Below, in pieces: positions 4,960 through 62,815 of a stretch of DNA of 64,000 bases. Origin of the DNA: Leptolyngbya boryana PCC 6306 (GTDB taxonomy: Bacteria; Cyanobacteriota; Cyanobacteriia; Leptolyngbyales; Leptolyngbyaceae). Numbering within the stretch: the stretch's first letter is position 1; the number at the start of each line of letters is the position of its first letter. The notes under the pieces are model-generated. The model did no database searches. It was given only the letters and a program-made list of their open reading frames with translations, and had not been told where the DNA came from. The position numbers and the translations under genes are program-made. Location: positions 73,006-137,005 of the forward strand of contig NZ_KB731325.1 in assembly GCF_000353285.1 (NCBI RefSeq), written 5' to 3'.

Positions 4960-7900
4960 CTAGCCTGTTGCTTGATACAACAGTGGGTAGGCTTCAACAT
5001 TACGAATAATCTGCATGATCGCGGGAGGCAATTTCGGCAAAATCCTTGCCTTCACCGATTCCCGCATTCCCCGCCAAAGGATCGCGATGACTTCCTCGCC
5101 ATACTCCTGTGCGTCTTCGAGCAGTTCGCATTCCGGTTCGGGTGCGTCGTCTACATCTGGATCACCCGTATCATTAATTAATTCCTCACAGAGGGGCGAT
5201 CCAGCGTCTCGCCAGTGTTTGCGACGTTCTAAAATTGCCTCAACCTTTTGCCAGTGTTCTGAGTTGAGCGAGTAAACTTTGAGCTTCTCACCTTCATGTC
5301 CTGCCACCGATCTACTCCAACGAAATGTTGCTTTTAGACAAAGCTGTAGGAGAAGTTCATGAACGATTTGAGTATCGGATATTGTGGCATTGATGCTGAA
5401 GTGAAGCGCAATTTTCACCTCATGGTGAGCCTCTCTCGCCTTTTGCGCGATCTCGCTGAGGTCGTATTTTGTCCATTCCGCACCTTGAATGATGCGATCG
5501 ACAAATTTAGTGATGCCAAGCTCTTCTCGCAAGGCTCGCCGCAATTCAATTTGATTGAGATCCCATGCACACAGGGACTTCCCCCAAACTGCTTGCTGTT
5601 CCAAACTTTTGACACTGCGGTTTTGGGCAAGTGAGGGTTCAAGCTGCACTTCGAGTGAAGTAATCTCAACTCGGCGCTTGCCGTCTTGATCCCACAGCAC
5701 ATCTTCGGGAGTCACGGTTTCCAATCCATAAAACTCTTTGAGATGGAACTTACTCATTGCCTGTTGATGCTCTGGAGAAATTCGCTCGTTGGATTGTGCT
5801 CCTGGTTGGTGATCTAAGCTCATTTCCTGAATGGCTTTGATCTCAGCAAAGCTCAGATCCTGAGCATGAGAAATCGCGATCGCAGATTGTTCACGCTGCT
5901 CTTTGCGCGTTTCTTTGAATAAGGTTTGAACCGCTAAGTTCGTTGTCGCTGAACAGACGGTTACAGCATTGCCTTCTCGCCGCAGCCGAACATAGAGCGC
6001 ATCGCGAAGCTGATACATCGCAGCGTTTTGATTGGCACTCAGTTCACAAAATAGATTGAGGTGGGGATCATCGTCCCAGGAATAGCGATCGATAAACAGT
6101 GCGGTGTCTTCGCGCAGATTGGAGCGGATCAGTCGCACCATTGCTGAGGTCGAATGAAACAGGTGCTTTTTCACCTCTCGCCGATGCGTAGCGCGACTCA
6201 CCTTCGAGAAGTTACTGCCGATGCGGGTGCACCAAACGGTACGAGGAACAGGCTCTCGCACTCGGCTTAGGGCTTGAGATAAATCGGCATCAGTTCCGGC
6301 AACTCCAGTAAAAATGCCATACACTTCGCGAATCACCCCCTGAATTTCGATGCTGACCCCGGTTGCCATCGAGGGCGAGCTAATGATGACATCAAATATG
6401 CCTTGCGTCAGAACGCGATCCGGCTGCTCGATAAACTCCCGCTCGATCTGTCCCCCACTGGTTTCGGAGTTGATGACCAATACCCGTTTCTCAGGAAACG
6501 TGCGATCAAGAATTTGGGCGATCGCCTGACTCGTTGCTTTACTATCGGTAGCAACAAAGATCGTTTGTCCAGTTGGCAGATCAGAGATCGCATCGATCAG
6601 CTTCTGAGTCACGGCTGTGCGATCGGGGGCTTCGATAAGCGTCACTGGAAAACCATCAGGCTGATAGTCATTGCGAACAATAAAAGGTGGGGTACTATCA
6701 CCACGCAAATCCTGGAGATAATTGAGGACAGCATCGTTCAAGTCTGCATCGGCGACGAATACCCGTTTTGCTACCTTTAGCAGTTCTCGAAATCGTGCCA
6801 GTAGCGCAGGGCGCTTCCCGTCTTTGGCACAGGTGCTTGATGTGAGCAAATGACGAACGACTTGAATGCATTCATCGATGATTAGGTCGCAGTCTTGAAA
6901 CTGTTCTGGATCGATTGCGAGCAGGGAATCTACGCAAAACCCAACGCGTAGTGTGTAGCCTGTTCCGGTAATAAATGATCCATTCACCTTATCGAGATCG
7001 CCGCGCCAATCTAAGCCCACACGGTTTGCGAGATTTCTGCCGAGTGCAATCCGAAACGTGGCGGATAGAACTTTGGGACTTGTTTCAACGAGCGATCGCA
7101 GCAGTTTTGTTTTTCCACTTCCTTTCGGCGACACGAATGCCACAATCCCTGCTTGTGGGAATGTGGCTTGACTCAGACTCGATAAATCTGGGGCATTCAC
7201 TGATCGCGCAACCGGCGATTGAAGTGGATGAAATAAATTATGTTCCAACTTCCAGTGACAGAGCTTGAGCGCATCGGTATAAGCCGTTTCTAACGCTTTA
7301 ATGCCCTCTGCAACGATCAGATCGTCGATTCCTTTTGCCCCTTTCCAGGTCATTACAGAGACGTGACTCTGAGTTGCTTCTAGTAGATTGCCGTATCGAA
7401 TCAGCGCACACCCAACCCGCTGTCGCGTTTGAGGACTTTCATCTTGGTCAAACGCTAGGAAATGTGGTCGTCCCACCTGACAAAAGCGAATGACATCCGA
7501 GATTAAAGCGCGGCTTCCGTCGAACAAACGACGATATCCCCCATTCACGCCATATAGTGAAATTGCAATATGGCCTTGGGTAAGGAGAGCCAGCGCTTTT
7601 TTAGCGCCTTCAGTCCAAATAATCGGCAGATTAGGTCGAGCTTCTAACCACGTCCAGAATGATCCCTCCTGTGGAATTTCAACGTGATATCTTGCGGAGA
7701 TGCGATCGCGAATTGATGCTGGAATCGTTGGCAAGAAAGCACGGGAACCATTCCCGATCGGCGTTTCATATTTCCGAGGTTTACCTTTCTCGCGATCAAA
7801 ACACGGTGTTTCTAGTTTGGCTTGCCAGATGGTGCCGTCTTCGTTTGTGAACAGGGCTGCCATTTGATGGGGGCGAGCTTCGTTGCCAAACCGCTTATAG

Positions 7901-8166
7901 ACCCAGTTCAAGGCATCGGCGATCGGAGATTCGACATCCCCACCTAAACTGACCTGGATGTCAGACACAACCTTGATGGTGCTTTCAAATAGCTCTGGTG
8001 CGATCGCAGAGCCGTCTAAACATTCGCGTCGAAATACGTCGGCAAAAGAAGACTCGAATTGGGTGTCTTCTTGGGATGGCAGCACATTTGACCGAAGCGA
8101 TGTCAAAATGCCTGCATCAAAGGAATGCTCCTGCGATTGCCGAGCATCCTCATTGAAAGATGTCAT
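4960..8166 (-). CDS. cyRepA1: Plasmid replication protein, CyRepA1-like (DUF3854 + SF-type helicase)
   Basis: A 1068-residue protein matching the architecture of the CyRepA1 family, which drives replication of cyanobacterial plasmids. An N-terminal DUF3854 (primase/toprim-like) region shows 'IIWTEGAKKALALLTQGH' near residues 183-200. A helicase-like ATPase follows, with Walker A 'SPKGSGKTKLL' (about 347-357), Walker B 'DLIIDECIQVV' (about 426-436) and an arginine-rich motif 'QALSRVREPVPRTVW' (about 633-647). The C-terminal ~350 residues have no recognised motif. The ATG at 8166 has a clear site (GGGAG, 8 nt spacing). Upstream lies a long non-coding region with iteron-like repeats, as expected of an initiator next to its origin. 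Autoregulation through those repeats is plausible but not shown. Confidence 0.88.
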   Translation of the reverse strand: MTSFNEDARQSQEHSFDAGILTSLRSNVLPSQEDTQFESSFADVFRRECLDGSAIAPELFESTIKVVSDIQVSLGGDVESPIADALNWVYKRFGNEARPHQMAALFTNEDGTIWQAKLETPCFDREKGKPRKYETPIGNGSRAFLPTIPASIRDRISARYHVEIPQEGSFWTWLEARPNLPIIWTEGAKKALALLTQGHIAISLYGVNGGYRRLFDGSRALISDVIRFCQVGRPHFLAFDQDESPQTRQRVGCALIRYGNLLEATQSHVSVMTWKGAKGIDDLIVAEGIKALETAYTDALKLCHWKLEHNLFHPLQSPVARSVNAPDLSSLSQATFPQAGIVAFVSPKGSGKTKLLRSLVETSPKVLSATFRIALGRNLANRVGLDWRGDLDKVNGSFITGTGYTLRVGFCVDSLLAIDPEQFQDCDLIIDECIQVVRHLLTSSTCAKDGKRPALLARFRELLKVAKRVFVADADLNDAVLNYLQDLRGDSTPPFIVRNDYQPDGFPVTLIEAPDRTAVTQKLIDAISDLPTGQTIFVATDSKATSQAIAQILDRTFPEKRVLVINSETSGGQIEREFIEQPDRVLTQGIFDVIISSPSMATGVSIEIQGVIREVYGIFTGVAGTDADLSQALSRVREPVPRTVWCTRIGSNFSKVSRATHRREVKKHLFHSTSAMVRLIRSNLREDTALFIDRYSWDDDPHLNLFCELSANQNAAMYQLRDALYVRLRREGNAVTVCSATTNLAVQTLFKETRKEQREQSAIAISHAQDLSFAEIKAIQEMSLDHQPGAQSNERISPEHQQAMSKFHLKEFYGLETVTPEDVLWDQDGKRRVEITSLEVQLEPSLAQNRSVKSLEQQAVWGKSLCAWDLNQIELRRALREELGITKFVDRIIQGAEWTKYDLSEIAQKAREAHHEVKIALHFSINATISDTQIVHELLLQLCLKATFRWSRSVAGHEGEKLKVYSLNSEHWQKVEAILERRKHWRDAGSPLCEELINDTGDPDVDDAPEPECELLEDAQEYGEEVIAILWRGMRESVKARILPKLPPAIMQIIRNVEAYPLLYQATG

Positions 8167-8465
8167 TTTATTGCTCCCGATGAATTAAGGTTCGGGAGAT
8201 TCAAAGCGCGACTTTTCACCCTTTGAATCCCTTTCTGAAGTGCATGAAAGGGATACCAAGCGTGTCTCAACGAATTGGATCAGAAAAAATGCGCGTTCTA
8301 TCTCAACTTGTATTCCAGTGAAATCCCAAAAAACATCTCGATCGATATTGCGCTCATCTTTCGATATGACATAATAGAGACACGAAGTAACTACGGTCAC
8401 TTCTAACAATGCTCCACGAGTGTCCAATTCGTCGCAGTTAGAGTGCCCGTCAAGGTATCCTGTAC

Positions 8466-8491
8466 CTTCTCTCCGATTGGAGAAGTTTTAT
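8466..8491 (+). terminator. Terminator-like hairpin upstream of the replication gene
   Basis: CTTCTCTCC-GATT-GGAGAAG (one bulged T) followed by TTTTATT on the plus strand. It points away from the replication gene and would end a plus-strand transcript complementary to that gene's 5' leader. That is the position of a counter-transcribed copy-number RNA, but no plus-strand promoter was identified with certainty. Confidence 0.45.
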
Positions 8492-8802
8492 TAGATTAAG
8501 CTCAGCCCTACTGCCGCAAACAGTCGGGGTTTTGCTTTTTAAATAGTCCTCCTTTGTTAATTCAAAAGAACGCCTGTCCTATTGCGCTCGATCCTACCTT
8601 AGATCAAAAGATCTGCAACCGAAGGTCGTGGGATCATTAAACACCCTGTTTTTGCCCAGAATGAGCGAGTCAACAATGGAATACGAAAACTCCCTTAGAG
8701 TTGTCAATTGTTGCTGAACCTGCTTTGTTGTAAGGGTTTTGCAACTGCGATTGTTGTCAGATCCTAGTCTCTAAAATTCAGTAGTACTTTTTTTCGTGTC
8801 GC

Positions 8803-9362
8803 GATTCTAGAAGATGAGAGCGCTAAAGATTAGGCGATCGTGGCAACGTTTCAAGATGCGAGTTGTGATGGCAATTCTGTCAACGCGATCAAGAACTGGG
8901 TTGGGGTATGGCTGAGATATGTTGCGAGATTCTAGTTGGACGGTCAATTTTGTCAACACGATGGGCGGTCGCATGACTAGAACTAGGTCAAGGCAATGTT
9001 TCAAGATGCGAGTTGGACAGTCAATTCTGGCAACAGGATTGAGATGTCGGTTGGGATAGGCTGGGATATGTTGCGAGATTCTAGATGAGCGGTCAATTCT
9101 GTCAACACGGTGAGCGACCACATTAGTGGAAGTACCCGCAGGAATGTTTCTACATACGAGTCATTCAGTCAACTCTGTCAATTATTGCGATTTATTAAGA
9201 GTTTATAGAATTGATTCAACATGGAAGGTTTGTTGATTAAATTGCACAACCTGCCGCCAGAACGGTGATGAAGTTTAATTGAGCCGCGTTGACAATCAGA
9301 GCAACGATCAACAAATGCACGAAATGTTAGCGGATTCTAGAGTGAATGTTTCGCGATTCTAG
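8803..9362 (+). repeat. Five exact copies of GATTCTAG in the origin region
   Basis: The octamer GATTCTAG occurs at 8803, 8928, 9077, 9333 and 9355, usually preceded by GCG or GCGA. Two copies belong to the ~75-bp repeats, but three lie outside them, so it seems to be an independent site. Chance would give far fewer than one copy in 560 bp. Confidence 0.55.
8842..9186 (+). repeat. Five iteron-like ~75-bp repeats
   Basis: The core GTCAATTCTGTCAACA recurs with few changes; the 'caatt/caact' position falls at 8872, 8945, 9022, 9094 and 9170, giving spacings of 73, 77, 72 and 76 bp, close to seven turns of B-DNA. Two leader types alternate: TTTCAAGATGCGAGTTG (8850 and 9000) and ATGTTGCGAGATTCTAG (8919 and 9068). 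So the array is two copies of a ~150-bp double unit plus a fifth half. The position between two candidate replication proteins fits an origin with iterons. An operator array is the alternative. Confidence 0.7.
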
Positions 9363-9455
9363 TCTTTCTGAACTAGAGAAAAGACACTCGATGATCGCAT
9401 CAATCCTCTGCAGAAGCTGAACCTTACACCTACCGAGGTCACAGCATCCTGAAGC

Positions 9456-11435
9456 ATGGGTGTTGACAGTTTCGCTTTAGCAAAGTGGTTTTTAGCGCTT
9501 AGCGGTATACTTTTCCGCATGTCGATCTCTTTTACTAATGTGACTCAATTAGACAACTCCCACTCACTATCGGTATTGTCTAACTCCGATGCTTCTGAAT
9601 TGATGAGCGCTTCCCTCAATTCAGCTCGGGTGCAAGCTTATGCTGCGAAACTGAAGGGGGATAAGTCATTTTTGCGCTTGATTCTTGTGAATGTTGCAGC
9701 AGGAATTAATCAGTTCAGATTGCAGTCTGATCACTCACGCCTAGAAGGGAATAAAGATGTTGTCAATCTCTATGGAGAGACTGAGAGGATTGGAGCTTTA
9801 GACAAGCGATCGATTCAACGCCTGGAGCGACGGTTTCGTTCTGTTCTCAAGACAGATGAGTTTTGGCATCAGACAGCGACCTGGATTCTGGTTCATCTTG
9901 ATCAGTGGCAACAAGAATCACGGATGCCGTCAGAGCTTGGAGTGCTATCTATCATGTCAGAGCGTGACATGATAGATAGCGATAAGTGGCGCGAGTCTTC
10001 AGTTACGAGTGCCTGTGCTTGGCATACAGCGAGTCAGTGGTTGAGACACTTGAATCTTCCGACATACGGAGCATCTGAAATTGATAAATTGTTAGGCATT
10101 GAAACCGTTGATTCTGAGGAAACGCGAGAACCTTTATTCCAGGATGCAGATATTGAACGAGTTGCGACAGGCTACCCCATTCTCACGGGTGCTCAAGCAC
10201 TGATCAACTCTCAATGGGAAAATGGCGAATATCCTTACTGGAAAAAGCTAGTAGGTGGCGGGTTCATCCAGCACAACATTGTCCGTCAAAGCCCTTCCAG
10301 CCAGCAGATGGAATTGGTTCCAGGGCAAGCTGCTTGGGAGATTATTAAGAATTTTGGTCCTGAAGCCGCATATGTTTTTCTCATCTTCGCTTCGTATGCA
10401 ACTGACTCTGAGGAGCCGTGGGCTGACCAAATTCGGTTGCAGGGGACGGATCTGATCCGACTGTTTGGCTGGGATAAACGCACAGACATTACGATCGCGC
10501 AGAAGCTCAAAAAGATTGGCAGCTTAGTAGAATTGGTCTGTAGCCTTGCTGTGCTGGTTAGTAACATCAATATTGGTGAAAAACGGTACAACGTTGAGCG
10601 AGGTGCAATGTGGATACTCGAAGGGCTGGGGTATTCAGGTCAACTCGCTTTGACGGTCAATGCGAATCGCTCTGGTTCTCCAAGCTATGAACCAGGGGAA
10701 CCAGATGAGCTATACATCAAAGTGCGCCCTGGAATTTGGACTGAAAAGTTTTTGAATGCGAGTGATGTGAGTGCGAAGGAAGCGCTCTTTCAATATGGCT
10801 ATCTCGCAAAAAGTACCCTTCAAATTAACCCTTATCGTCAGCGCTTGGCTTCAAAGCTAGCAATTTTCCTCACAATCATGAGTCGGATTCGGGAAGAAGG
10901 TCGTTATGAAGTCAGAACTCTCCTGGAAAGACTGGAGCCAACTGAACTACTAGAAGAAATTCGAGAGAATCGGGTTCGTCGAACGAAGGTCATCAATCAA
11001 TGGGATAGTGCATTGCTAACGCTGAAAGAGCTGGGATGGGAAATTGGCTTTGATCCAGCAACGTATCCAGAGAGTATTCGACCCGCTTGGGCAGTGAGTG
11101 ATGAGGTCGATGCGACGAGCTATCGTCCTCGTAATTGGTTAGCGACCTGGCTTAAAGCGATCGTGATCATCAAGCCCTCCGAAAAAATCCAAGAAAAGCT
11201 CGAAGATCATTCTCCCGTTGCATTGAAGGCTCCTCCGGCTCCCGCTCAACCTCCGGCTCTAACAGGTGAGGCAATTCAAGCTGCACTGGATGCGAAAGGA
11301 ATGACCAAAGCAGAGTTAGCAGACAAATTGAACGTCGATCGCTCATTGGTGACACGCTGGCTTAAGGGGCAAAGAAAGATTCAGCCGAAACATCAGGCTG
11401 AAATTAAACTGATCCTCGGAGACCTTGAGAGTTAG
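9456..11435 (+). CDS. Hypothetical protein with C-terminal XRE-type HTH, next to the candidate origin
   Basis: A 659-residue protein. The last ~50 residues are a Cro/CI-type helix-turn-helix ('MTKAELADKLNVDRSLVTRW', then 'LKGQRKIQPKHQAEIKLIL'), linked by a proline-rich stretch ('PPAPAQPPALTGE') to a large helical body I do not recognise. The body contains 'RLFGWDKRTDITIAQKLKKIG' near residues 335-355. Position just downstream of the repeat array and divergent from the replication gene suggests a second initiator, a copy-number regulator or an origin-binding protein. The start is uncertain: neither ATG 9456 nor ATG 9519 (22 codons in) has a good ribosome binding site. A perfect 16-bp inverted repeat lies inside the gene at 9944-9980. 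Confidence 0.75.
   Translation: MGVDSFALAKWFLALSGILFRMSISFTNVTQLDNSHSLSVLSNSDASELMSASLNSARVQAYAAKLKGDKSFLRLILVNVAAGINQFRLQSDHSRLEGNKDVVNLYGETERIGALDKRSIQRLERRFRSVLKTDEFWHQTATWILVHLDQWQQESRMPSELGVLSIMSERDMIDSDKWRESSVTSACAWHTASQWLRHLNLPTYGASEIDKLLGIETVDSEETREPLFQDADIERVATGYPILTGAQALINSQWENGEYPYWKKLVGGGFIQHNIVRQSPSSQQMELVPGQAAWEIIKNFGPEAAYVFLIFASYATDSEEPWADQIRLQGTDLIRLFGWDKRTDITIAQKLKKIGSLVELVCSLAVLVSNINIGEKRYNVERGAMWILEGLGYSGQLALTVNANRSGSPSYEPGEPDELYIKVRPGIWTEKFLNASDVSAKEALFQYGYLAKSTLQINPYRQRLASKLAIFLTIMSRIREEGRYEVRTLLERLEPTELLEEIRENRVRRTKVINQWDSALLTLKELGWEIGFDPATYPESIRPAWAVSDEVDATSYRPRNWLATWLKAIVIIKPSEKIQEKLEDHSPVALKAPPAPAQPPALTGEAIQAALDAKGMTKAELADKLNVDRSLVTRWLKGQRKIQPKHQAEIKLILGDLES
9944..9980. 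repeat. Perfect 16-bp inverted repeat within a coding region
   Basis: Left arm GCTATCTATCATGTCA (9944-9959), loop GAGCG (9960-9964), right arm TGACATGATAGATAGC (9965-9980). It encodes 'SIMSERDMIDSD' in the HTH-protein gene. A 16-bp perfect stem with a 5-nt loop is long for coding sequence and could be a protein-binding site or a pausing or processing hairpin. Confidence 0.8.
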
Positions 11436-11510: not shown

Positions 11511-11858
11511 ATGCCGCGCCGACCTACGATCACGTCTTTGCAAGCCTCCATTAATCGTCTGAGTTCCGATGAGCAGCAGCAGCTTTACATTTGGCTCGGT
11601 CAGCGGCTGCAAGAAAATTCAATGCTTGGAGCTGATGTAGCTCCAAGCGGAGTTGAGACGCGCAACTATCAAGGAAAAACCTATGTGTTGCAGAAGCGGC
11701 GCTGTGGTCGGGCGGATTGCTCGTGTATGGATGGAGAGGTTTCGGAGGTGGGGCATGGACCCTACTGGTATGCGTACTGGCATGAGAGCGGAAAAACGCA
11801 GAATCATTATGTTGGGAAACGTCCTCCTTGGATGGAAGAGGCGATGTCTGAGGGGTGA
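11511..11858 (+). CDS. DUF6788-like protein with C-x4-C-x-C cysteine cluster
   Basis: A 115-residue protein. The second half 'YVLQKRRCGRADCSCMDGE...GHGPYWYAYWHESGKT...YVGK' fits my recollection of DUF6788: a Cys cluster (C-x4-C-x-C), a 'HGPYWYxYW' strand and a terminal 'Y-GK'. The cluster could bind metal. The N-terminal part ('SLQASINRLSSDEQQQLYIWL') is helical. Function unknown; family members are found on mobile elements. The gene lies between two copies of the TTTCTTGTGTAA dyad (11461-11510 and 11921-11960), with the first touching its start codon. This suggests that it is regulated by, or travels with, those elements. Confidence 0.7.
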   Translation: MPRRPTITSLQASINRLSSDEQQQLYIWLGQRLQENSMLGADVAPSGVETRNYQGKTYVLQKRRCGRADCSCMDGEVSEVGHGPYWYAYWHESGKTQNHYVGKRPPWMEEAMSEG

Positions 11859-12633: not shown

Positions 12634-12819
12634 TGTTAAAAGAACCTGAACGAAGATTACAGATTGATGTTCACGTTGCGGGTAGACCCCAATGCAAACC
12701 AAGATTCAGAGGGGCAAGTAGGTACCCTAAGCGGATGTTACAGTGGTTCGGGGTACCTGATACCCCAAGGGGGTGCCCCAAACTTTCTGTTTCCCATTCG
12801 TCGCTGCCCTTTCTATCCC

Positions 12820-15800
12820 ATGCCCAGAGCTACCTATGGTCCTCGAGTCAAATATCGAGCAAAACGCCTCTTCACTGCGATCGCAGCATTTGCCCAAGAT
12901 GAGTTAGAGGGCGTTGAGCAGATTCCAGTTCGATGCTCCTGGCAGCCAGAAGCAGACTCGCCAACGTTGATTGTGCGAACAACCCTGAGAGCACTCGAAG
13001 AACTGTGTAAAAAGGATGGATTCGGAACGCCGTTAACCAAACCCCAGATTCGAGAAGCTTTAAGCCGCATGGAAGATTTCCTGAACATTTTGGAAGATGT
13101 TCGAGAAAATCCAAAAGGAACTGAACATTGGCACTTCAAGTTAACGCTGTGGTCAAGAGATACAACTGAGAATGTAAATCAGTTTGACCAATTCTGGGAA
13201 ACTAAGCGACCACTCAAATCAAAGGAACAACAAACCGTAAATCCGATAGTTGCGTCCTCAGAACCCACGCCTATAAAGCCAGAGAAATGTGGCCTTAATT
13301 TTCTCTTTAGCAAATCACTGCAAAATCAACAAAATAATCAAGAAGGACAAGCGATTCAGATTCACGCTCCACACGTCCCTGTGTTTGTGGGGCAGGGTCG
13401 TCCGACTTTTGGCAAACCGCTACAAATGCCACCTCTTCCCGACTATTTTGTGGAACGTCCAGAGCACCAGGATGCGGTGAAATTCCTGTTAATGCGGGAA
13501 GGCCTTGATGAACCTGCCACGTTGATTGTGAGTGCAATTCATGGGTTGGGCGGCATTGGGAAGTCAGTGTTGGCGGCGTGGCTTGCCCATGATGCGGAGG
13601 TGCAAGCGCGATTCTGCGATGGCGTGCTGTGGGCAACCTTGGGGCAAGACCCTGATATTCTCTCCTTTCTCTGCGATTGGATTCAGGCATTGGGCGATCG
13701 CGACTATAAACCGACGACGATTTCGGGTGCATCAAGTCATCTGCGCACGTTGTTGTATGACAAGCGGGTGTTGCTCGTGGTGGATGATACGTGGTCGCCG
13801 GAGCATGTAGAGCCGTTTCGGGTGGGGCGATCGGGGTGTCGGGTGTTGGTGACGACAAGGGAGGCAGCGATCGCGGATGCCAAACGCTATGACCTAGAAG
13901 AGATGAAGCCGGAGCAGTCGCTGGAGCTGTTGACGAAGAAGTATCCGGGAAAGTTAATTGCGATGGAGCGATCGCAAGCGGCACAGTTGGCAGAAACCGT
14001 AGGGCATTTGCCACTGGCGTTGGAGTTGGCAGCTGCCCAGATTGATGATGGTGTGCTGTTTAGTGAGTTGTTAGAGGATCTGCAAGCGGAGACAGCACGA
14101 TTAGAGACGTTGGATCGCCCGGTGGAAGTGAGTGCCGCCTATGGTAAGCGGTATAGCCTGTTGGCATCTTTGAATTTGAGTGTGCAGCGGCTATCGTCGG
14201 AGCAACAACGGCAGTTTGCCTGGTTGGGTGTCTTGCCAGAGGATGTATTGGTAACGGAGCAGGTGACGGCAACATTGTGGCAGATGACGGCGCGGCAAGC
14301 GGGGGCGGCGCTACGGGTGTTGAGATCTCGTGCCTTGCTCCTAGCGGGCGTGCAGCAGGTGGGACAAAAGCCGACCTATCGGATTCATGACTTGATTCAT
14401 AATTTGGCAAAACGTTTACTCACAGGTAGTCCTGAACCGGAGTATGAGCAGGATCTGCCGGGATTGGGAATGACGTTAGTAGATGCCCATACTAAGTTTT
14501 TGCAGCGGTATAGGGAGAAGACGGATCAGGGAGGATGGCACAGCTTACCGGAAGATAGCTATATTCACAGTCAACTCACATGGCATTTGGAGCAGGCGGG
14601 ACAGGTTGAGGAGATTCATGCCCTGCTGAAGGAGCGTACAACAACAGGGCAAAACGGGTGGTTTGTTGCTTGCGAGTCGTTAGGGCAGACAGCGAATTTT
14701 GTCAAAGATGTAGCGCGAGCATGGCAATGGGCGGATCAGCAGTGCGAAACTAATCCGGTGGGTGCGATTTATTGGCAATGTCGCTATCTGTTGATCTATG
14801 GTTCGCTCAATAGTCTAGCGAGCAACATTCCTCCAGAATTGATTGCAGCGTTGGTGGAGAAGGGATTCTGGAAGCCGAACCAGGGGTTAGCTTATGTACA
14901 GCAAATACCAGAGGCAAGGCGGCGTGCTGATGCAATTGCGACAATTTTGCCTCATTTGCCAAAAGAGTTGATGGGCGAAGTGTTAGCAGTGACACGTGAA
15001 ATTCAGGATGAATCTGTTCGCACTGATATATTGCGTGCTTTAGTGCCTCACCTGCCAGAGTTAGTGAGTGAAACGCTGGCAGTGACACGTGAAATTCAGG
15101 ATAAGTCTGCACGTGCTCATGCGTTGTGTGCTTTAGTGCCTCACCTGCCAGAGTTGGTGAGTGAAACGCTAGCAGTGGCACGCGAAATTCAGGATAAGTC
15201 TGCACGTGCTGATGCGTTGCGTGTTTTAATACCTCACCTATCAGGAGAATGGATGGGCGAAGCGCTGGCAGTGACGCGTGAAATTCAGGATGAATTTGCC
15301 CGTGCTTCTGCATTGTGTAATTTAGTACCTTACCTACCAGGATTAGTGGGTGAAGCGCTGGCAGTGACGCGTGAAATTCAGGATGAATTTGCCCGTGCTT
15401 CTGCATTGTGCAATTTAGTACCTTACCTACCAGGATTAGTGGGTGAAGCGCTGGCAGTGACACGTGAAATTAGTAATGAGTCTAATCGCATTGATGTATT
15501 GCGTGCTTTAATACCTTACCTATCAGGAGAATGGAGGGGTGAAGTGTTGACAGTGATACGTGAAATTGGGAATGAATCTGCGCGTGCTGATGTTTTGTGT
15601 GCTTTAGTGCCTCATCTGTCGGAAGAATTGATGGGTGAGGCGCTAGCAGTGACACGCGCAATTCAGTTTGAGTACTTTCGCGCCTTTGCGTTGCGGACTT
15701 TAGTGCCTCATCTATCAGAGGAACTGTTGGACGAAGCGTTAGTAGTGATGCGCGAAATTGGGAATGAGACTATGCGTGCTGATGTTTTGTGTGCTTTAGT

Positions 15801-16737
15801 ACCTCACTTGCCGGAGCTGGTGGGTGAAGCACTTGCAGTGACACGTGAGATTGGGAATGAGTCTGCACGTGCTTCTGCGTTGTGTGCTTTAGTGCCTCAC
15901 TTGCCGGAGCTGGCGGGTGAAGCACTTTCAGTGGCACGTGAGGTTGAGGATGAATCTGCGCGCGCTCATGCTTTACGTGCCTTAGTGCCTCATCTGTCAG
16001 AGGGATTGATGAGTGAAGCGCTGGCAGTGACACGTGAAATTCAGGATAAGTTTGTGCGTGCTAATGTTTTGCGTGCCTTAGTGCCTCATCTGTCGGAAGA
16101 ATTGATGGGCGAAGCGTTGGCAATGACACGTGAAATCGGGAATAAGTCCGCACGTGCTGATGTTTTGTGTGCTTTAGTACCTCGCTTGCCGGAGCTGGCG
16201 GGTGAAGCACTTGCAGTGACACGTGAAATTGGGAACGAGTCTGCACGTAATGCTCTGCGTGCCTTAGTGCCTCATCTGTCAGAGGGATTGATGGGCGAAG
16301 CATTGGCAATAACACGTGAAATTGGGAACGAGTCTGCGCGTGCTGATGTTTTGTGTGCTTTAGTACCTCGCTTGCCGGAGCTGGCGGGTGAAGCACTTGC
16401 AGTGACACGTGAAATTGGGAACGAGTCTGCGCGTGCTTCTGCGTTGTGTGCTTTAGTGCCTCATTTGCCAGAATCATCAATCAACGAATCCTTAGAATGT
16501 GTAAAGAAGATGCGGGATCTCTACTACAAAGCAAAAGCACTTCAATGCTTTACACAACAATTGACGTGCATATCTACTACTCCACGCTTTTGGTCTGAAA
16601 CCTTACACGCTTTCTCTGCTCTACATCGCTATGAATTAATAGCAACCCTAGCGAATTTAACTTCCTTCGTCTTAACTCTTGGTGGTGTGGATTCCGGAAA
16701 TTATGGCAGAGGGAATTCCGGAAATTATGGCAGATGA
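12820..16737 (+). CDS. NB-ARC (STAND) NTPase with helical repeats; 3' end replaced by an IS21 insertion
   Basis: STAND-type signalling ATPase. The N-terminal module ('MPRATYGPRVKYRAKRLFTA' to 'HWHFKLTLWSRDT') resembles the adaptor domain that opens many cyanobacterial NB-ARC proteins. The NTPase has P-loop 'GLGGIGKSVLAAWLA' near 13545, kinase-2 'VLLVVDDTWS' near 13770, 'CRVLVTTRE' near 13840 and 'GHLPLALELAA' near 14005. The C-terminal third is about 17 HEAT-like units of 31-32 residues. I chose ATG 12820 because homologues start with 'MPRxTYG'; the open frame reaches ATG 12664, but its first 52 codons run over GC-rich palindromes (such as GGGGTACCTGATACCCC) and leave no room for a divergent promoter. 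The last 16 codons ('VDSGNYGR' and on) are IS21 end sequence; the original tail is at 19230-19295. Probably a ligand-sensing immunity or cell-death switch. Confidence 0.85.
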   Translation: MPRATYGPRVKYRAKRLFTAIAAFAQDELEGVEQIPVRCSWQPEADSPTLIVRTTLRALEELCKKDGFGTPLTKPQIREALSRMEDFLNILEDVRENPKGTEHWHFKLTLWSRDTTENVNQFDQFWETKRPLKSKEQQTVNPIVASSEPTPIKPEKCGLNFLFSKSLQNQQNNQEGQAIQIHAPHVPVFVGQGRPTFGKPLQMPPLPDYFVERPEHQDAVKFLLMREGLDEPATLIVSAIHGLGGIGKSVLAAWLAHDAEVQARFCDGVLWATLGQDPDILSFLCDWIQALGDRDYKPTTISGASSHLRTLLYDKRVLLVVDDTWSPEHVEPFRVGRSGCRVLVTTREAAIADAKRYDLEEMKPEQSLELLTKKYPGKLIAMERSQAAQLAETVGHLPLALELAAAQIDDGVLFSELLEDLQAETARLETLDRPVEVSAAYGKRYSLLASLNLSVQRLSSEQQRQFAWLGVLPEDVLVTEQVTATLWQMTARQAGAALRVLRSRALLLAGVQQVGQKPTYRIHDLIHNLAKRLLTGSPEPEYEQDLPGLGMTLVDAHTKFLQRYREKTDQGGWHSLPEDSYIHSQLTWHLEQAGQVEEIHALLKERTTTGQNGWFVACESLGQTANFVKDVARAWQWADQQCETNPVGAIYWQCRYLLIYGSLNSLASNIPPELIAALVEKGFWKPNQGLAYVQQIPEARRRADAIATILPHLPKELMGEVLAVTREIQDESVRTDILRALVPHLPELVSETLAVTREIQDKSARAHALCALVPHLPELVSETLAVAREIQDKSARADALRVLIPHLSGEWMGEALAVTREIQDEFARASALCNLVPYLPGLVGEALAVTREIQDEFARASALCNLVPYLPGLVGEALAVTREISNESNRIDVLRALIPYLSGEWRGEVLTVIREIGNESARADVLCALVPHLSEELMGEALAVTRAIQFEYFRAFALRTLVPHLSEELLDEALVVMREIGNETMRADVLCALVPHLPELVGEALAVTREIGNESARASALCALVPHLPELAGEALSVAREVEDESARAHALRALVPHLSEGLMSEALAVTREIQDKFVRANVLRALVPHLSEELMGEALAMTREIGNKSARADVLCALVPRLPELAGEALAVTREIGNESARNALRALVPHLSEGLMGEALAITREIGNESARADVLCALVPRLPELAGEALAVTREIGNESARASALCALVPHLPESSINESLECVKKMRDLYYKAKALQCFTQQLTCISTTPRFWSETLHAFSALHRYELIATLANLTSFVLTLGGVDSGNYGRGNSGNYGR
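14905..16485 (+). repeat. ~17 tandem 93-96-bp coding repeats (HEAT-like)
   Basis: Each unit encodes a helix pair close to 'ARADVLCALVPHLPEL' followed by 'VGEALAVTREIGNES'; two lengths alternate (31 residues with 'PEL', 32 with 'SEEL' or 'SEGL'). Neighbouring units are nearly identical at DNA level (for example the units around 15290-15470), a sign of recent expansion by unequal recombination. One unit near 16240 is one codon shorter. Confidence 0.85.
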
Positions 16738-57050: not shown

Positions 57051-57872
57051 CTACGATGAAATTTCGCTCCATAGTGTTGTTGTGGTCCGAAGGCTCAAGA
57101 AATCGCCATTTCCAAGAATAAGATGATCTAGAACTGGCAGCATGAGAAGCTGTCCCGCATCGAGCAGTTGTTTTGTCAGTGCGATATCTTCTGAACTAGG
57201 AGTAAGATTTCCAGACGGATGATTATGGGCGATAATCAAGCGGGCCGCGTTTTGTCGAATCGCTTCTCGAAATACATCCGGCGGATGTACGCAAGTCTGA
57301 TTCCCACTTCCGATCGCGATCAGTTGCTGCCCTAGCAGCTGATGCTTGATATTGAGCAGCAGAACAGCGAACCGCTCCTGGGGTTGAAACATTAGATTTT
57401 TCGACAAAGCTTGGGCTGCGAGTTCAGGCGAATCAATCACTGTTCCAATGGGAGGTGACTGTAGAAATAATCGTCGTCCTAGCTCGATCGCGGCAAGAAT
57501 CGTCGCCGCCTTCGCTTCTCCAATGCCATTGACCTGCATTAATATTTCCGGCTTGGCCTCTCTCAGCGATCGCGTTGCATCATCTAGATGATTTTGTAGA
57601 TGAGCGAGCAGCTTTTGAGCGAGAGCGACTGCGGACTCTCCTTGAGAGGCATTGCCGCTTCCCAGTAGAATTGCGAGTAGCTCTGTATTTGAAAGATGTC
57701 CTGCTCCTTCGGTGAGTAAGCGCTCCCGTGGTGTTTCACCCTGTGGATAATGACGAAGCGTCAGGGTAGGATCTGACGATCGTTTTGCTGCGGCATACGA
57801 AGACTTGAGTGTCGGTGAAATGCTGAAGTCAGCCCAATCAGTCTCTAATGAATGATGAATCTCTTCGCGCAT
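57051..57872 (-). CDS. radC: RadC/JAB-domain protein (second copy)
   Basis: A 273-residue RadC-family protein from ATG 57872. N-terminal 'PRERLLTEGAGHLSNTELLA' and 'ILMQVNGIGEAKAATILAAI' (helix-hairpin-helix), C-terminal JAB domain with JAMM motif 'IAHNHPSGNLTPSSEDIALT'. This is the more standard RadC length. The frame is open upstream into the next gene, so a shorter start is chosen. Compared with the copy at 38.5 kb it keeps the full HhH region. Function in DNA repair is unproven. Confidence 0.88.
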   Translation of the reverse strand: MREEIHHSLETDWADFSISPTLKSSYAAAKRSSDPTLTLRHYPQGETPRERLLTEGAGHLSNTELLAILLGSGNASQGESAVALAQKLLAHLQNHLDDATRSLREAKPEILMQVNGIGEAKAATILAAIELGRRLFLQSPPIGTVIDSPELAAQALSKNLMFQPQERFAVLLLNIKHQLLGQQLIAIGSGNQTCVHPPDVFREAIRQNAARLIIAHNHPSGNLTPSSEDIALTKQLLDAGQLLMLPVLDHLILGNGDFLSLRTTTTLWSEISS

Positions 57873-59549: not shown

Positions 59550-60065
59550 TTATTTTCGCTCTACTCGTCCTGAACGGCGCATCGATTCCCAAAGGATCTG
59601 AGCTATCTTATGCTCGAAAAGAGCGACCTGAAGTGGATCATTTTTAGGTGGTTTTGTGAGAAGGCGAACCAGCTCACTCATTCTTCCAAAGTCTTCCTCT
59701 GCATGTTCAAGCAGAACTAATAAGGCTCGAAAAATGTGACTAAAAGTATTGGGTTCACCTGTGAGGCGGTATGCAAAGTCCTGCCATTTTTTCCGCTCTG
59801 AATTTGTGCAGCGAACCCGGATTTCACTCGACATGATTTCTCGGCGTTCTCCGGCTTTGGGCTGAGATCTTGCCATCGCAGTGAGTGAACTTTGTGAATT
59901 CCCTGCCCCTTCATCAAGTTCAGTTGGCTTGCTCTGATCAAGGGGCTCAGAATCTTGAGGAACGGTTAAGGATTGATCTAAATCGCTGAGTGGGGAGATG
60001 ACCCGCTGCAAGCGTGAGCCAACAGGATTGTAGTTAACATCGAGGACTGTTGCTCGCTTACCCAT
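59550..60065 (-). CDS. Plasmid partition partner protein (RHH-like, downstream of parA)
   Basis: A 171-residue protein whose ATG 60065 overlaps the parA stop by 8 nt, so they are translationally coupled. The first ~85 residues look disordered ('SEPLDQSKPTELDEGAGNSQ'). The C-terminal part 'SSEIRVRCTNSERKKWQDFA' and on to 'TFSHIFRALLVLLEHAEEDF' has the beta-helix-helix layout of a ribbon-helix-helix DNA-binding domain. In type Ib partition systems ParA is followed by a small RHH protein that binds the centromere and represses the operon; that is the likely role. The longer frame from 60275 is rejected. Confidence 0.7.
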   Translation of the reverse strand: MGKRATVLDVNYNPVGSRLQRVISPLSDLDQSLTVPQDSEPLDQSKPTELDEGAGNSQSSLTAMARSQPKAGERREIMSSEIRVRCTNSERKKWQDFAYRLTGEPNTFSHIFRALLVLLEHAEEDFGRMSELVRLLTKPPKNDPLQVALFEHKIAQILWESMRRSGRVERK

Positions 60066-60912
60066 GATCAACCTCATCAAAAGTTTGACGATCGAAAAAA
60101 CGAGCAATCTTTGCCTTAAACTCTTGCGCCATATCACGGAAGCACTGAGTAATGGCATGATCAGGATGCGTTTGGAAGATCGACTTCTGTTGGGTCTGGG
60201 CGGTGGGGATAATGGTAGAGCGCTGAATGACAGGTTTGAGGACGTATTCTTTGAATTCCTTATCCACATAGGCAATGAGTTCCCGACTTAGCCGAGTGCG
60301 GGCATCGACTGCTCCGATCGCTAACCCTACGAGCTGTAAATCTGGATTGCCGTATTTTCTCACTTCTTCAATGTCATGCAGCGCTTCTTGCAGACCTTGA
60401 ATTGCCAGCCCTTCTGGAATGGCAACGAGCAAGAAACCATCCGCTGCTTTATAGGCCGCCACGATGGGTAGTGGAGCGCTAGGAGGCGTATCAAGAAAGA
60501 TAAAGTCGTAGTAACCCCGTAGTTTCTTGATCACAGGCTTGAGGACATCATGAAGAGGCGTATCGTCAAACTTTGACTTCTTGGCTCGAAGCCGCTCCTC
60601 TAGCTCTTCTAGCTTGCGTGAGCCCGTCAGAAGATGAAGAGACTCTGGTAGGGAATGACCTTCATCTTCATGCGTCACGATCGCGGTTAGTGGATCTTCA
60701 TCTCCAAGCAATACTTCAAACGTTCCCAGATAAGCACGAGGGTCGATGCCTAGATGCTTTGTTGAGCCCGCATTTACATCCAGGTCAATGATCAGCACCT
60801 TATGTCCCTGCTCTGCGAGCGCATAGGCAAGCTGAATGGTCATGGTGGTCTTGCCGACTCCTCCTTTTTGGTTGCCGATGCCAATTACAAGGGTTTGATG
60901 TTGGCGTTTCAT
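60058..60912 (-). CDS. parA: ParA family partition ATPase
   Basis: A 284-residue ParA. The deviant Walker A 'GIGNQKGGVGKTTMTIQLA' (residues ~11-29), switch I 'LIIDLDVNAGSTKHLGID' and Walker B-like 'YYDFIFLDTPPSAPLPIV' are all present. There is no N-terminal HTH, so it is a small type Ib ParA. It drives segregation with the RHH protein encoded just downstream. A cluster of short palindromic repeats at 60962-61170, upstream of the start, is the likely centromere and operator. Confidence 0.92.
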   Translation of the reverse strand: MKRQHQTLVIGIGNQKGGVGKTTMTIQLAYALAEQGHKVLIIDLDVNAGSTKHLGIDPRAYLGTFEVLLGDEDPLTAIVTHEDEGHSLPESLHLLTGSRKLEELEERLRAKKSKFDDTPLHDVLKPVIKKLRGYYDFIFLDTPPSAPLPIVAAYKAADGFLLVAIPEGLAIQGLQEALHDIEEVRKYGNPDLQLVGLAIGAVDARTRLSRELIAYVDKEFKEYVLKPVIQRSTIIPTAQTQQKSIFQTHPDHAITQCFRDMAQEFKAKIARFFDRQTFDEVDHG

Positions 60913-60961
60913 ACGGTGTTATGCAAAAAAAGTAGATAAAATCTTGCAGCGATAACTGACG

Positions 60962-61170
60962 TTGTTCCTACGTCGCGATGTAGGAACGTAGGAATGTTGT
61001 TACCGGAACTCTCTCAAACGGCTTCAGTTTAGACAAGCTCAAAAGCCCATTAAAACAGTGAAAAATCTAATCCTCTTGCTATCGCGCTCGCGTGGTGATG
61101 CTCCGCAATGTCCCTACGTAGGCATGTAGGCATGTAGGAACGTTCCTACGTCGCGACGATGTAGGACGCT
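60962..61170. repeat. Centromere-like repeats upstream of parA
   Basis: Repeats built on GTAGGAACG / CGTTCCTAC: TTCCTACGTCGCGATG with TAGGAACGTAGGAATG at 60964-60995, and at 61110-61170 a run of CTACGTAGG, ATGTAGG, ATGTAGG, then the perfect palindrome GTAGGAACGTTCCTAC (61134-61149), CGTCGCGACGATGTAGG. Two clusters 115 bp apart on one side of a ParA operon are the expected layout of a parS/parC centromere that the RHH protein binds. Confidence 0.7.
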
Positions 61171-61609
61171 CTTCGGGGATCGATTGAGCTAATACTGCGA
61201 TATTGCAAACTCTTCTAAGCTATTGTCGAATGATGATAGGGCACGCTCAGGTCTAAGATGACGCTTTGATGACAAAGCATCCGCCGGTTTCACCTTTCTT
61301 GAGATCAGGAGAAACGAGCAGTGCAGGGGTGAGCTTGTGATGAAAAAAGAAGGCTCCCGCACTCAAAGATGATTCGATGAAAATGAGAGAGCCAAAAAGA
61401 TCAGTCAGGTCTAACGATCGAAAATCAATTCCAAAGAAGAAAGCAAATGCCTAGCCCGCATCTGCTTCTTTCGTTCTCTGAAGGTTCAGAATGAATTTCT
61501 CCGGTTAGCTTCTAGGTAGACTAGAACGACACATTTGGTTCGTCAAGAGATTAACTCTGAGTGGGTTTGTGCGGTTTGATTTTCGATCTCCACGTTTGGA
61601 GGTATCGAA
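61171..61609. other. Divergent promoter region (parA side and replication-like gene)
   Basis: No gene seen. Contains a purine-rich leader and the site GGAGG (61598-61602) of the next gene. Minus-strand ORF 61505-61849 is a shadow of that gene and lacks a ribosome binding site. Confidence 0.4.
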
Positions 61610-62815
61610 ATGCATTCTACTCAATCTTCTTCGCCCATTGAAGGGGGATACTGCCTGCTTTCCCAAGCGACCCTTACGAATGTCTTGGGCGCACTCATCG
61701 ATCGCGCCATTTCCTATCGAGCGGCACGAGTCTTTTTTGCCTGCTGTTCGATGCGATCGATTCGAGAAGCAGCGGCTCGTTGTCAGATCCGAAAGCACCA
61801 GAAGATTCAGTTTCGATTCGACGAGATTCGCCAACGTGTCGGCACTCAATCTGAGAAACTGATTCGAGCGGATTTAAAGCAGCTTGAGCGATCGGGCCTT
61901 CTCTCTTTTACTCAAGATGCGATCGAGGTTGTGACCGTTCCAATCAACTTCACGCAATCGTTCGATCTAGGTCGCTCGATGCGACGACTCATTCCAGTTC
62001 CCCGGCGCATTCTAGAATATCTCGCCCAATGTCCCAGTCCTTCCGTACTGCGTGGCATCATCGTTTATGTGCTCAGAGGTCTCACGCTTCGTCAAGGGAT
62101 TGTTTATGCCTGCGGCTCAGTTAAATCCTCTTGGGTCGCTCAGATTGCTCATATCAGCCTTCGCGCAGCGAAATCAGTTCGTGCTCATTTGATTGAGATT
62201 GGGTGGCTAACCAAAGATACTGGCTCCACTCAGCGAAAGCTCAATGCTACAGGTGCTTTTTTCCGCATCAATACTCAATGGAGGCGATCGTCTTCTACAA
62301 CGAAGCAACCTCGGGCTGTGGATAACTCGACAACTTCAGATTCTCAATCTGCACCCCTGATCGCAAAATTGGGGAGTAAATCTGCACCCCCAATACAAGA
62401 CTTAAAAACTTCTACGAACTCTAAAGACCAGAAATCTTCCAAATCACTTCCTGGTGTTTATCAACAAACTCAAAAAATTTCGCCACCGATACTCCACAAC
62501 ATCCAGGCAAACGACCTGTATCATTTTCACCGCTTGGAGCTTCTGTATTGGCAAGCGATTGCGGCGAAATGGCTGATCCACTCTGAAGCGAGTACACTCA
62601 ATTGGATCTGTGCAGCAGTCAGGGCGCGAGAAGTTGTCAAGCGTTCAGGCGGCAATGCCGTCAAAGTTTTTGTCACGATTGTCCGCCGCAAACTCTGGAA
62701 TACAATTACAGGAACGCAGGAAGACTACGCTCGCAAAAGCCTGGTTCGATTTCGAGAGACCTGTCCACAACTTTTTCGTCACAGGAGCGAGAGCGATCGC
62801 AGGATTTCTGTTTGA
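61610..62815 (+). CDS. Winged-helix protein, possible second plasmid replication initiator
   Basis: A 401-residue protein with ATG 61610 behind a very strong site (GGAGG, 7 nt). Residues ~20-120 contain 'VLGALIDRAISYRAARVFFA' and 'IRADLKQLERSGLLSFTQ', a winged-helix look. A second HTH-like segment follows ('AQIAHISLRAAKSVRAHLIE' then 'IGWLTKDTGS'). A low-complexity linker (~240-290) leads to 'WIHSEASTLNW'-like helices. Position beside parA and its centromere is that of a Rep protein, but I do not recognise a Rep family. It could also be a transcription factor. Confidence 0.6.
   Translation: MHSTQSSSPIEGGYCLLSQATLTNVLGALIDRAISYRAARVFFACCSMRSIREAAARCQIRKHQKIQFRFDEIRQRVGTQSEKLIRADLKQLERSGLLSFTQDAIEVVTVPINFTQSFDLGRSMRRLIPVPRRILEYLAQCPSPSVLRGIIVYVLRGLTLRQGIVYACGSVKSSWVAQIAHISLRAAKSVRAHLIEIGWLTKDTGSTQRKLNATGAFFRINTQWRRSSSTTKQPRAVDNSTTSDSQSAPLIAKLGSKSAPPIQDLKTSTNSKDQKSSKSLPGVYQQTQKISPPILHNIQANDLYHFHRLELLYWQAIAAKWLIHSEASTLNWICAAVRAREVVKRSGGNAVKVFVTIVRRKLWNTITGTQEDYARKSLVRFRETCPQLFRHRSESDRRISV

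Follow-up and report, generated by a model that had tools for sequence, protein, structure and literature searches.

Plasmids of the RK2, F, R6K, and pSC101 type are iteron-regulated theta replicons, and a DnaA box is not universal among iteron plasmids. How replication is initiated on large cyanobacterial plasmids is little known. In passages of a study of pSYSX (PMC10899382), information on the Rep proteins of such plasmids is called limited, and CyRepX1 and CyRepX2 are presented as helicase-like products of Rep genes that lack Pfam domains. For pSYSA, passages of PMC9978351 state that the RNA of ssr7036 is thought to prime replication, and the word iteron is absent from the main text of that paper. 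Among literature titles and abstract openings, together with passages of a few papers, we found no description of the helix-turn-helix (HTH) protein family or of the iterons treated here. The GATTCTAGA iterons would provide a concrete, testable origin signature along with an initiator candidate.

The window, a 64,000-nucleotide stretch of DNA from Leptolyngbya boryana PCC 6306, is located on the large plasmid of this species (e.g., AP018205.1, 553 kb) and falls on contig C2 (521 kb) of the 7.26-Mb genome. A sequence-only reading had described helically phased 75-bp iterons between a CyRepA1-like gene and a divergent gene for a 659-residue HTH protein. Both flanking genes were as that reading had them (Table 1). 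The CyRepA1 protein belongs to its family by NCBIfam NF042913 (341.4 bits against a cut-off of 200) and carries Pfam DUF3854 (E 6e-35, 120.5 bits against 23). The HTH protein has an Xre/lambda-repressor HTH at its C-terminus (residues about 603-655; Pfam HTH_3), and an alternative start of its gene at 9519 is possible. The HTH gene, the CyRepA1 gene, and the array between them are identical across four L. boryana records.

Table 1. Positions of the features of the replication locus, numbered from the first letter of the window.
Feature	Position	Strand	Basis or remark
CyRepA1-family plasmid replication protein, partner gene	4960..8166	-	1068 aa; DUF3854 and helicase part
80-aa ORF in CyRepA1 leader	8185..8427	-	ORF list; placed as pSYSA ssr7036, by position only
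Candidate antisense RNA to CyRepA1 leader	8376..8545	+	RNA fold; promoter and ends by eye
Single iteron core GTTGTCAGATCCTAG	8753..8767	+	Site list
Single iteron core with GATTCTAG at 8803	8796..8810	+	Site list
Composite element 1, GATGCGAG type	8848..8883 (C2 81853)	+	Pattern search, whole genome
Composite element 2, GATTCTAG type	8921..8956 (C2 81926)	+	Pattern search; leftward TTGACA-N16-TAGAAT
Composite element 3, GATGCGAG type	8998..9033 (C2 82003)	+	Pattern search
Composite element 4, GATTCTAG type	9070..9105 (C2 82075)	+	Pattern search; leftward TTGACA-N16-TAGAAT
Composite element 5, decayed, HTH-proximal	9146..9181 (C2 82151)	+	Pattern search, 1 mismatch
A+T-rich stretch (76%), unwinding-element candidate	9190..9239		Adjoins proximal element
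Tandem pair of 22-bp iterons, GATTCTAG at 9333 and 9355	9326..9369	+	Alignment, 10 orthologous regions
659-aa HTH protein, proposed iteron-binding initiator	9456..11435	+	Pfam HTH_3 (C-terminal)

The locus resembles iteron theta plasmids in its 21/22-bp direct repeats beside the gene of a DNA-binding protein, the further sites near the start of that gene, and, more tentatively, its A+T-rich flank. It differs from them in that Pfam and NCBIfam recognize no known Rep domain in the HTH protein, which has an HTH of the Xre type, and is accompanied by a separate and varying partner, and in that no DnaA box was found at the window locus. The CyRepA1 leader, with its small ORF and a candidate antisense RNA comparable in place and size to asRNA1, may be like that of the pSYSA replicon as portrayed in passages of PMC9978351. 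The examined flank of pSYSA holds no HTH-family gene, no tandem repeats, and no GATnCTAG in the 1.5 kb upstream; the iteron part is additional here. The HTH protein and c1, a protein family that takes the place of CyRepA1 at many related loci, can be likened to CyRepX1 and CyRepX2 by description only, as those proteins are characterized in passages of PMC10899382.

The five repeats, spaced 73, 77, 72, and 76 bp, were recovered exactly as conserved elements of about 36 bp. Their two alternating leaders (GTTTCAAGATGCGAG and GTTGCGAGATTCTAG; decayed to GTTTCTACATACGAG in the fifth) and the five exact GATTCTAG octamers (at 8803, 8928, 9077, 9333, and 9355) were likewise present as had been reported. 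On both strands of the window GATTCTAG occurs 8 times compared to 2.0 in shuffled sequence, with 0 of 100 shuffles reaching 8, and it has been lost from alternate units of the array. A pattern built from the window's own composite elements, with up to 2 mismatches allowed, has 5 sites in the whole 7.26-Mb genome, all at this locus (reversed control, 0). A direct-repeat tool grouped the window array into families spaced 149-150 and 72 bp, and Tandem Repeats Finder reported no array at the window's elements. The 22-bp pair is conserved about 200 bp before the HTH gene, and it and the five composite elements together constitute the multiple direct repeats of about 17-22 bp with one core that are expected of an iteron origin.

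Helical phasing of 75-bp units did not hold up, as the observed value (R = 0.35 at 10.5 bp per turn) is matched by 66% of random spacings. The 75 bp is also not the repeat unit: relatives carry the same core in tandem 22-bp copies, and 75 bp is a duplication distance that is clear, among 22 regions, only in the window and in L012 (genome G009; 73 bp). Three tandem 22-bp copies lie between the HTH and CyRepA1 genes of three Nostocales-type relatives (L020, L021, and L022; 41-43% identity), with a fourth such relative (L023) being cut by a contig end, so the iteron is ordinary in length. Spacings of 22 and 44 bp are favored in 20 other loci, with 31 of 107 spacings between neighboring sites being multiples of 11, but no phase is evident among the 71 that exceed 50 bp (p 0.79 at 10.5).

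Upstream of the HTH gene, GATTCTAG was identified on the HTH strand in 19 of 22 regions (21 orthologues and the window) in 67 copies, against 0.003-0.04 expected in each; on the opposite strand it occurs in 6 of the 22. With GTCAA-like pairs, and not GATTCTAG, taken as the anchor, 61 of 65 TGTCAA pairs had GATTCTAG (up to 2 mismatches) exactly 15 bp upstream. L062, a near-copy of L061, was excluded from these geometry counts and from the spacing-phase counts. Among anchored elements, the C and G of GATTCTAG are 97-98% conserved, as are (97% each) a G and a T a further 7 bp upstream (-7/-6). Since the next GTC sits one 22-bp step past this GT, the element looks like a 22-bp iteron joined to a second, altered half. 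These comparisons identify GTYnnnnGATTCTAGA-n5-TGTCAAnnnTGTCAAC as the conserved unit, a fixed element whose core is also a tandem 22-bp repeat in relatives. The suggestion of a two-sub-site array for two proteins survives in part: the sub-sites, GATTCTAGA and the paired TGTCAA, are real and held at a fixed distance, whereas the allotment of one to CyRepA1 and one to the HTH protein found no support, both persisting where c1 replaces CyRepA1.

Screening of 388 genomes revealed 63 near-exact sites (up to 1 mismatch), 59 of which lie within 2 kb of an HTH orthologue, such that the repeats both adjoin and co-occur with the gene of the proposed binding protein. With up to 2 mismatches, 83 sites were detected in 29 genomes (reversed control, 2), 69 of them with an HTH orthologue no more than 2 kb away; since HTH upstream regions supplied the pattern, the informative part of these counts is its rarity elsewhere. 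Three of the four near-exact sites away from the HTH gene are directly upstream of c1 genes (two in G208; the third in G185, with a short c1 and an adjoining ORF that appears transposase-like by eye), and the fourth, on G009:C78, is beside none of the three families. In 16 of 21 HTH orthologues c1 replaces CyRepA1 (in one, L058, as a fragment at a contig end), and 15 of these 16 have an exact GATTCTAG. The HTH protein of G009 is better conserved relative to the window than is its CyRepA1 (81% against 55% identity).

The sequence-only reading had also advised a search for the array near cyRepA1 genes of other plasmids, and the array proved to be no general feature of CyRepA1 loci. Of eight CyRepA1 loci that lack an HTH-family gene, among which are pSYSA and the 46-kb plasmid of Synechococcus elongatus PCC 7942, none has GATnCTAG on either strand in the upstream 1.5 kb, and the sites adjoin HTH genes that have partners other than CyRepA1. 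Tandem repeats of 18-25 bp were equally absent (0 of 8), a result that is not decisive alone in that the window fails the same test; the missing GATnCTAG is the telling part. At one of the eight (L197), a different annotated helix-turn-helix gene adjoins CyRepA1, unlike the HTH family by tblastn. Collectively, these comparisons indicate that the sites go with the 659-residue HTH protein and not with CyRepA1, and the HTH protein is the predicted binder of the sites.

Six closed plasmids of 29-55 kb, from Calothrix, Aulosira, Fremyella, Nostoc, Geminocystis, and Gloeothece, were chosen for their small size, with the arrays in Calothrix and Geminocystis known before selection. In all six, the interval that separates the HTH gene from a replication-type gene contains 21/22-bp tandem repeats (2.6-4.6 copies); of 360 random 800-bp stretches of the same plasmids, 5 hold such a repeat. 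The core is ATnCTAG in four; Aulosira has the variant ATCCTAT, with ATTCTAG nearby, and Gloeothece has another core. Tandem arrays (85% identity) occur near the HTH gene in 22 of 67 loci, 10 with a CTAG core, and the window is without one by this test. At the other HTH loci, sites are dispersed, changed, or absent. In the tandem gene layout, arrays are downstream of the HTH gene.

The partner of the HTH gene varies. A replication-type gene was identified within 3.5 kb, a limit of our choosing, at 52 of the 67 HTH loci (c1 at 30, CyRepA1 at 15, c10 at 5, and c44 at 2). No recognized partner was detected within that distance at 15, among them L054, which stops at a contig end, and L140, scored as none with a c1 piece at 3.85 kb. 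The counts include L015 (the same place as L144), L062, and L023 (a fragment), and the 40 distant HTH loci were hand-picked from a ranked match list, not drawn at random. On a tree of 64 HTH proteins, which leaves out L015, L062, and L023 and on which twelve rows with long branches are unsure in placement, the partner label ('none' being one label) needs 22 changes, compared to a minimum of 4 and a shuffled mean of 31.1. CyRepA1 alone requires 8 gains or losses, 6 of them forced by well supported branches. The two genes are divergent in the window's group and mostly in tandem elsewhere.

Partner domains include PriCT-2 (L112 and L117) and AEP-TOTE with DnaB (L137), as well as Prim-Pol, PriCT-2, and DUF3987 together (Gloeothece), PriCT-2 (Nostoc), and CyRepA1 (Aulosira and Spirirestis). 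The Fremyella partner had no family match and is a c1 relative, and Pfam revealed no primase domain in two c10 members (L110 and L128). For c1, a match to Prim-Pol PF09250 (E 0.0012, 1 of 16 members) suggests a possible primase; an hhalign comparison with an AEP-DnaB protein gave a probability of 8.6% with co-linear motifs (0.2% against A4), and a fold model from a single sequence was discarded (pLDDT 38.2). A role for c1 in replication is suggested by the gene content of L. boryana plasmid 3 (L101, AP018206.1, 13,170 bp). The seven genes in its table, which may be incomplete, are c1, ParA, ParB, three transposition genes, and one unknown, leaving c1 as the only listed gene of replication type. 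Synechocystis pSYSG (L103, NC_005231.1), the Rep of which is termed unknown in a passage of PMC10899382, encodes a c1 relative of about 32% identity. An 818-aa protein divergent from CyRepA1 on plasmid 1 had no convincing Pfam match, and no relative of the HTH protein or c1 was confirmed on viral contigs.

Other marks of an origin are mixed. In 8 of 10 close orthologous regions, the 50-bp stretch richest in A+T (74-78%) coincides with the proximal element or adjoins it; in 8 more distant ones its placement is inconsistent. On the 521-kb contig, detrended GC skew is lowest 11 kb from the locus, a weak signal (p 0.03), and on seven smaller plasmids (L. boryana plasmid 3 and six that carry iterons) it is lowest 0.16-0.48 of the circle away. 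No DnaA box TTATCCACA was detected in 8167-9455 with 0-1 mismatch. The window has 15 DnaA boxes in total, which is not above chance, and three of its four exact ones are at 57742, 60260, and 62317. In that part of the window are a ParA gene (60058-60912, -) and a 401-aa ORF (61610-62815, +) with weak, below-cut-off matches to helix-turn-helix families, separated by palindromic CCTACGT/ACGTAGG repeats seen by eye; the region 60058-62815 could be either a partition locus or a second replicon.

Searches of Pfam and NCBIfam identified HTH families and no initiator (Rep, winged-helix) domain in the HTH protein, and in a profile search of the PDB its C-terminal HTH alone was matched. Fold matches were to SinR, C.Esp1396I, and HigA, all with E > 0.1 and over 50-60 columns, which correspond to the HTH only. 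The fold model (pLDDT 49.7) is interpretable at the C-terminal HTH and too poor for residues 440-580, where predicted secondary structure only suggests a winged helix.

Sequence comparison establishes the elements and how rigidly they are built, shows that they are linked to the HTH gene, and documents how varied its partners are; from this we infer HTH binding, DNA opening, CyRepA1 loading, and autoregulation. Positions 8750-9370 probably, with restrained confidence on our part, hold the iteron-type origin of a plasmid replicon together with its control region, the 659-aa HTH protein being the site-specific protein of that replicon. The HTH protein would bind the repeated element GTYnnnnGATTCTAGA, then TGTCAAnnnTGTCAAC at one 22-bp step, help to open the A+T-rich stretch at 9190-9239, and direct a replicative primase/helicase, here the divergently encoded CyRepA1, to the opened DNA. 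By the same binding it would be predicted to govern the amounts of both proteins, in the manner of classical iteron plasmids, since some elements coincide with a promoter-like sequence facing CyRepA1 and the 22-bp pair is upstream of the HTH gene. On other plasmids, the HTH-iteron part would have been kept and the partner swapped. Counting against an origin are the GC skew, the missing DnaA box, the promoter-like elements, the presence of tandem arrays in only 22 of 67 loci, the 15 of 67 HTH loci that have no recognized partner, the sites beside c1 where no HTH gene adjoins, the G009:C78 site beside none of the three families, the poor fold model with no recognized initiator domain, and the replication of pSYSA by CyRepA1 with no adjoining HTH-family gene.

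More tentatively, and at odds that we would put a little short of even, the locus may represent an undescribed class of bacterial replicon, in which one family of iteron-binding HTH initiators has been combined by repeated exchange with at least four kinds of replication protein, making recognition and priming interchangeable cassettes. The four would be CyRepA1, the c1 family, PriCT-2/Prim-Pol-DUF3987 proteins, and AEP-DnaB fusions, most of them recognizable primases or primase-helicases. If the partners are truly exchangeable, nature would have run, many times over, an experiment that separates origin recognition from priming. The iterons and HTH protein indicate the likely recognition half of this CyRepA1 locus and suggest small vector modules.

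An alternative that we regard as rather unlikely, and yet as deserving weight, is that the array is regulatory only, comprising HTH-controlled promoters and operators of CyRepA1 (or c1) and the HTH gene that control copy number, with the origin at another place, such as the CyRepA1 leader, the location proposed for pSYSA. Composite elements 2 and 4, read leftward, match 11 of 12 sigma-70 consensus bases; 47 of 61 elements have a perfect TTGACA at the 16-bp spacer, partly by construction from the GTCAA-like anchoring, and 38 of 61 have 5 of the 6 bases of TATAAT. Promoters would also account for the elements just upstream of c1 in G208 and G185, where no HTH gene adjoins, and the CyRepA1 leader has its antisense RNA candidate, as in pSYSA (passages of PMC9978351). 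However, 61 of 65 pairs share a single distance, and the C and G of GATTCTAG, which a -10 box does not need, are almost invariant; this constancy, and the conservation of bases that no promoter needs, argue for a protein site. In the 22-bp tandem copies, moreover, the next GATTCTAG by geometry occupies the -35 place, several copies are present per region, and arrays in the tandem layout are downstream of the HTH gene. Protein site and promoter may both hold, with an initiator covering the promoter of its partner.

Par systems typically combine a repeat array with a protein that binds DNA, and the plasmids are large; the array could be a centromere-like partition site that ensures segregation, with the HTH protein as a centromere-binding adaptor. 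We consider this very improbable, given that the HTH gene neighbors a replication-type gene and not a ParA-type ATPase, that 6 of 6 closed plasmids encode a ParA-type ATPase elsewhere (annotated as ParA, AAA family ATPase, or cobyrinic acid synthase) and 5 of 6 a ParB by annotation, and that the window has its own ParA at 60058-60912 with adjoining palindromic repeats by eye. Less credible still is an array that serves as the origin of CyRepA1 with the HTH protein as a bystander: it adjoins CyRepA1 in the window, G009, and G149, yet none of the eight HTH-less CyRepA1 loci has GATnCTAG upstream, and most HTH orthologues keep GATTCTAG with c1 in place of CyRepA1. We give equally slight credence to the array being a fossil, a decayed duplication on a plasmid that now replicates from 61-62 kb, as the loss of GATTCTAG from alternate units and the ParA gene, 401-aa ORF, palindromic repeats, and exact TTATCCACA boxes at 57.7-62.8 kb might indicate. 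The HTH and CyRepA1 frames are open, the array does not vary among the four L. boryana records, and G009 retains five elements without mismatch, all of which speak against decay.

An RNA layer may be superimposed on the proposed iteron-type origin. The fold of 8376-8545 is more stable than in any of 200 shuffles (z -4.4), as is that of the corresponding stretch of L012 (z -3.6; 0 of 200), and a terminator-like site is found at 8466-8485; Rfam had no match in 8000-9560. Because this stretch is placed as is asRNA1 of pSYSA, the locus may combine control of CyRepA1 by RNA with control by the HTH protein through the iterons.

A chromosomal role through loss of DnaA was considered and rejected, DnaA being kept in 4 of 4 genomes queried. 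In G208, a single chromosome-sized contig of 5.8 Mb, c1 (L179) at 3.42 Mb is accompanied by an identical pair of composite elements, and an HTH orthologue (L071) that lies apart from it, at 0.17 Mb, has no GATTCTAG upstream; the two are possibly an integrated or domesticated replicon. Near the locus in the window, a small DUF6788 protein (11511-11858) adjoins the HTH gene and has relatives near other loci (8 in one count and 11 in another). Beyond it, a large ORF (12664-16737), annotated in strain NIES-2135 as apoptotic protease-activating factor 1 like, contains a tandem repeat of 16 copies with a 93-bp period at 14948-16473.
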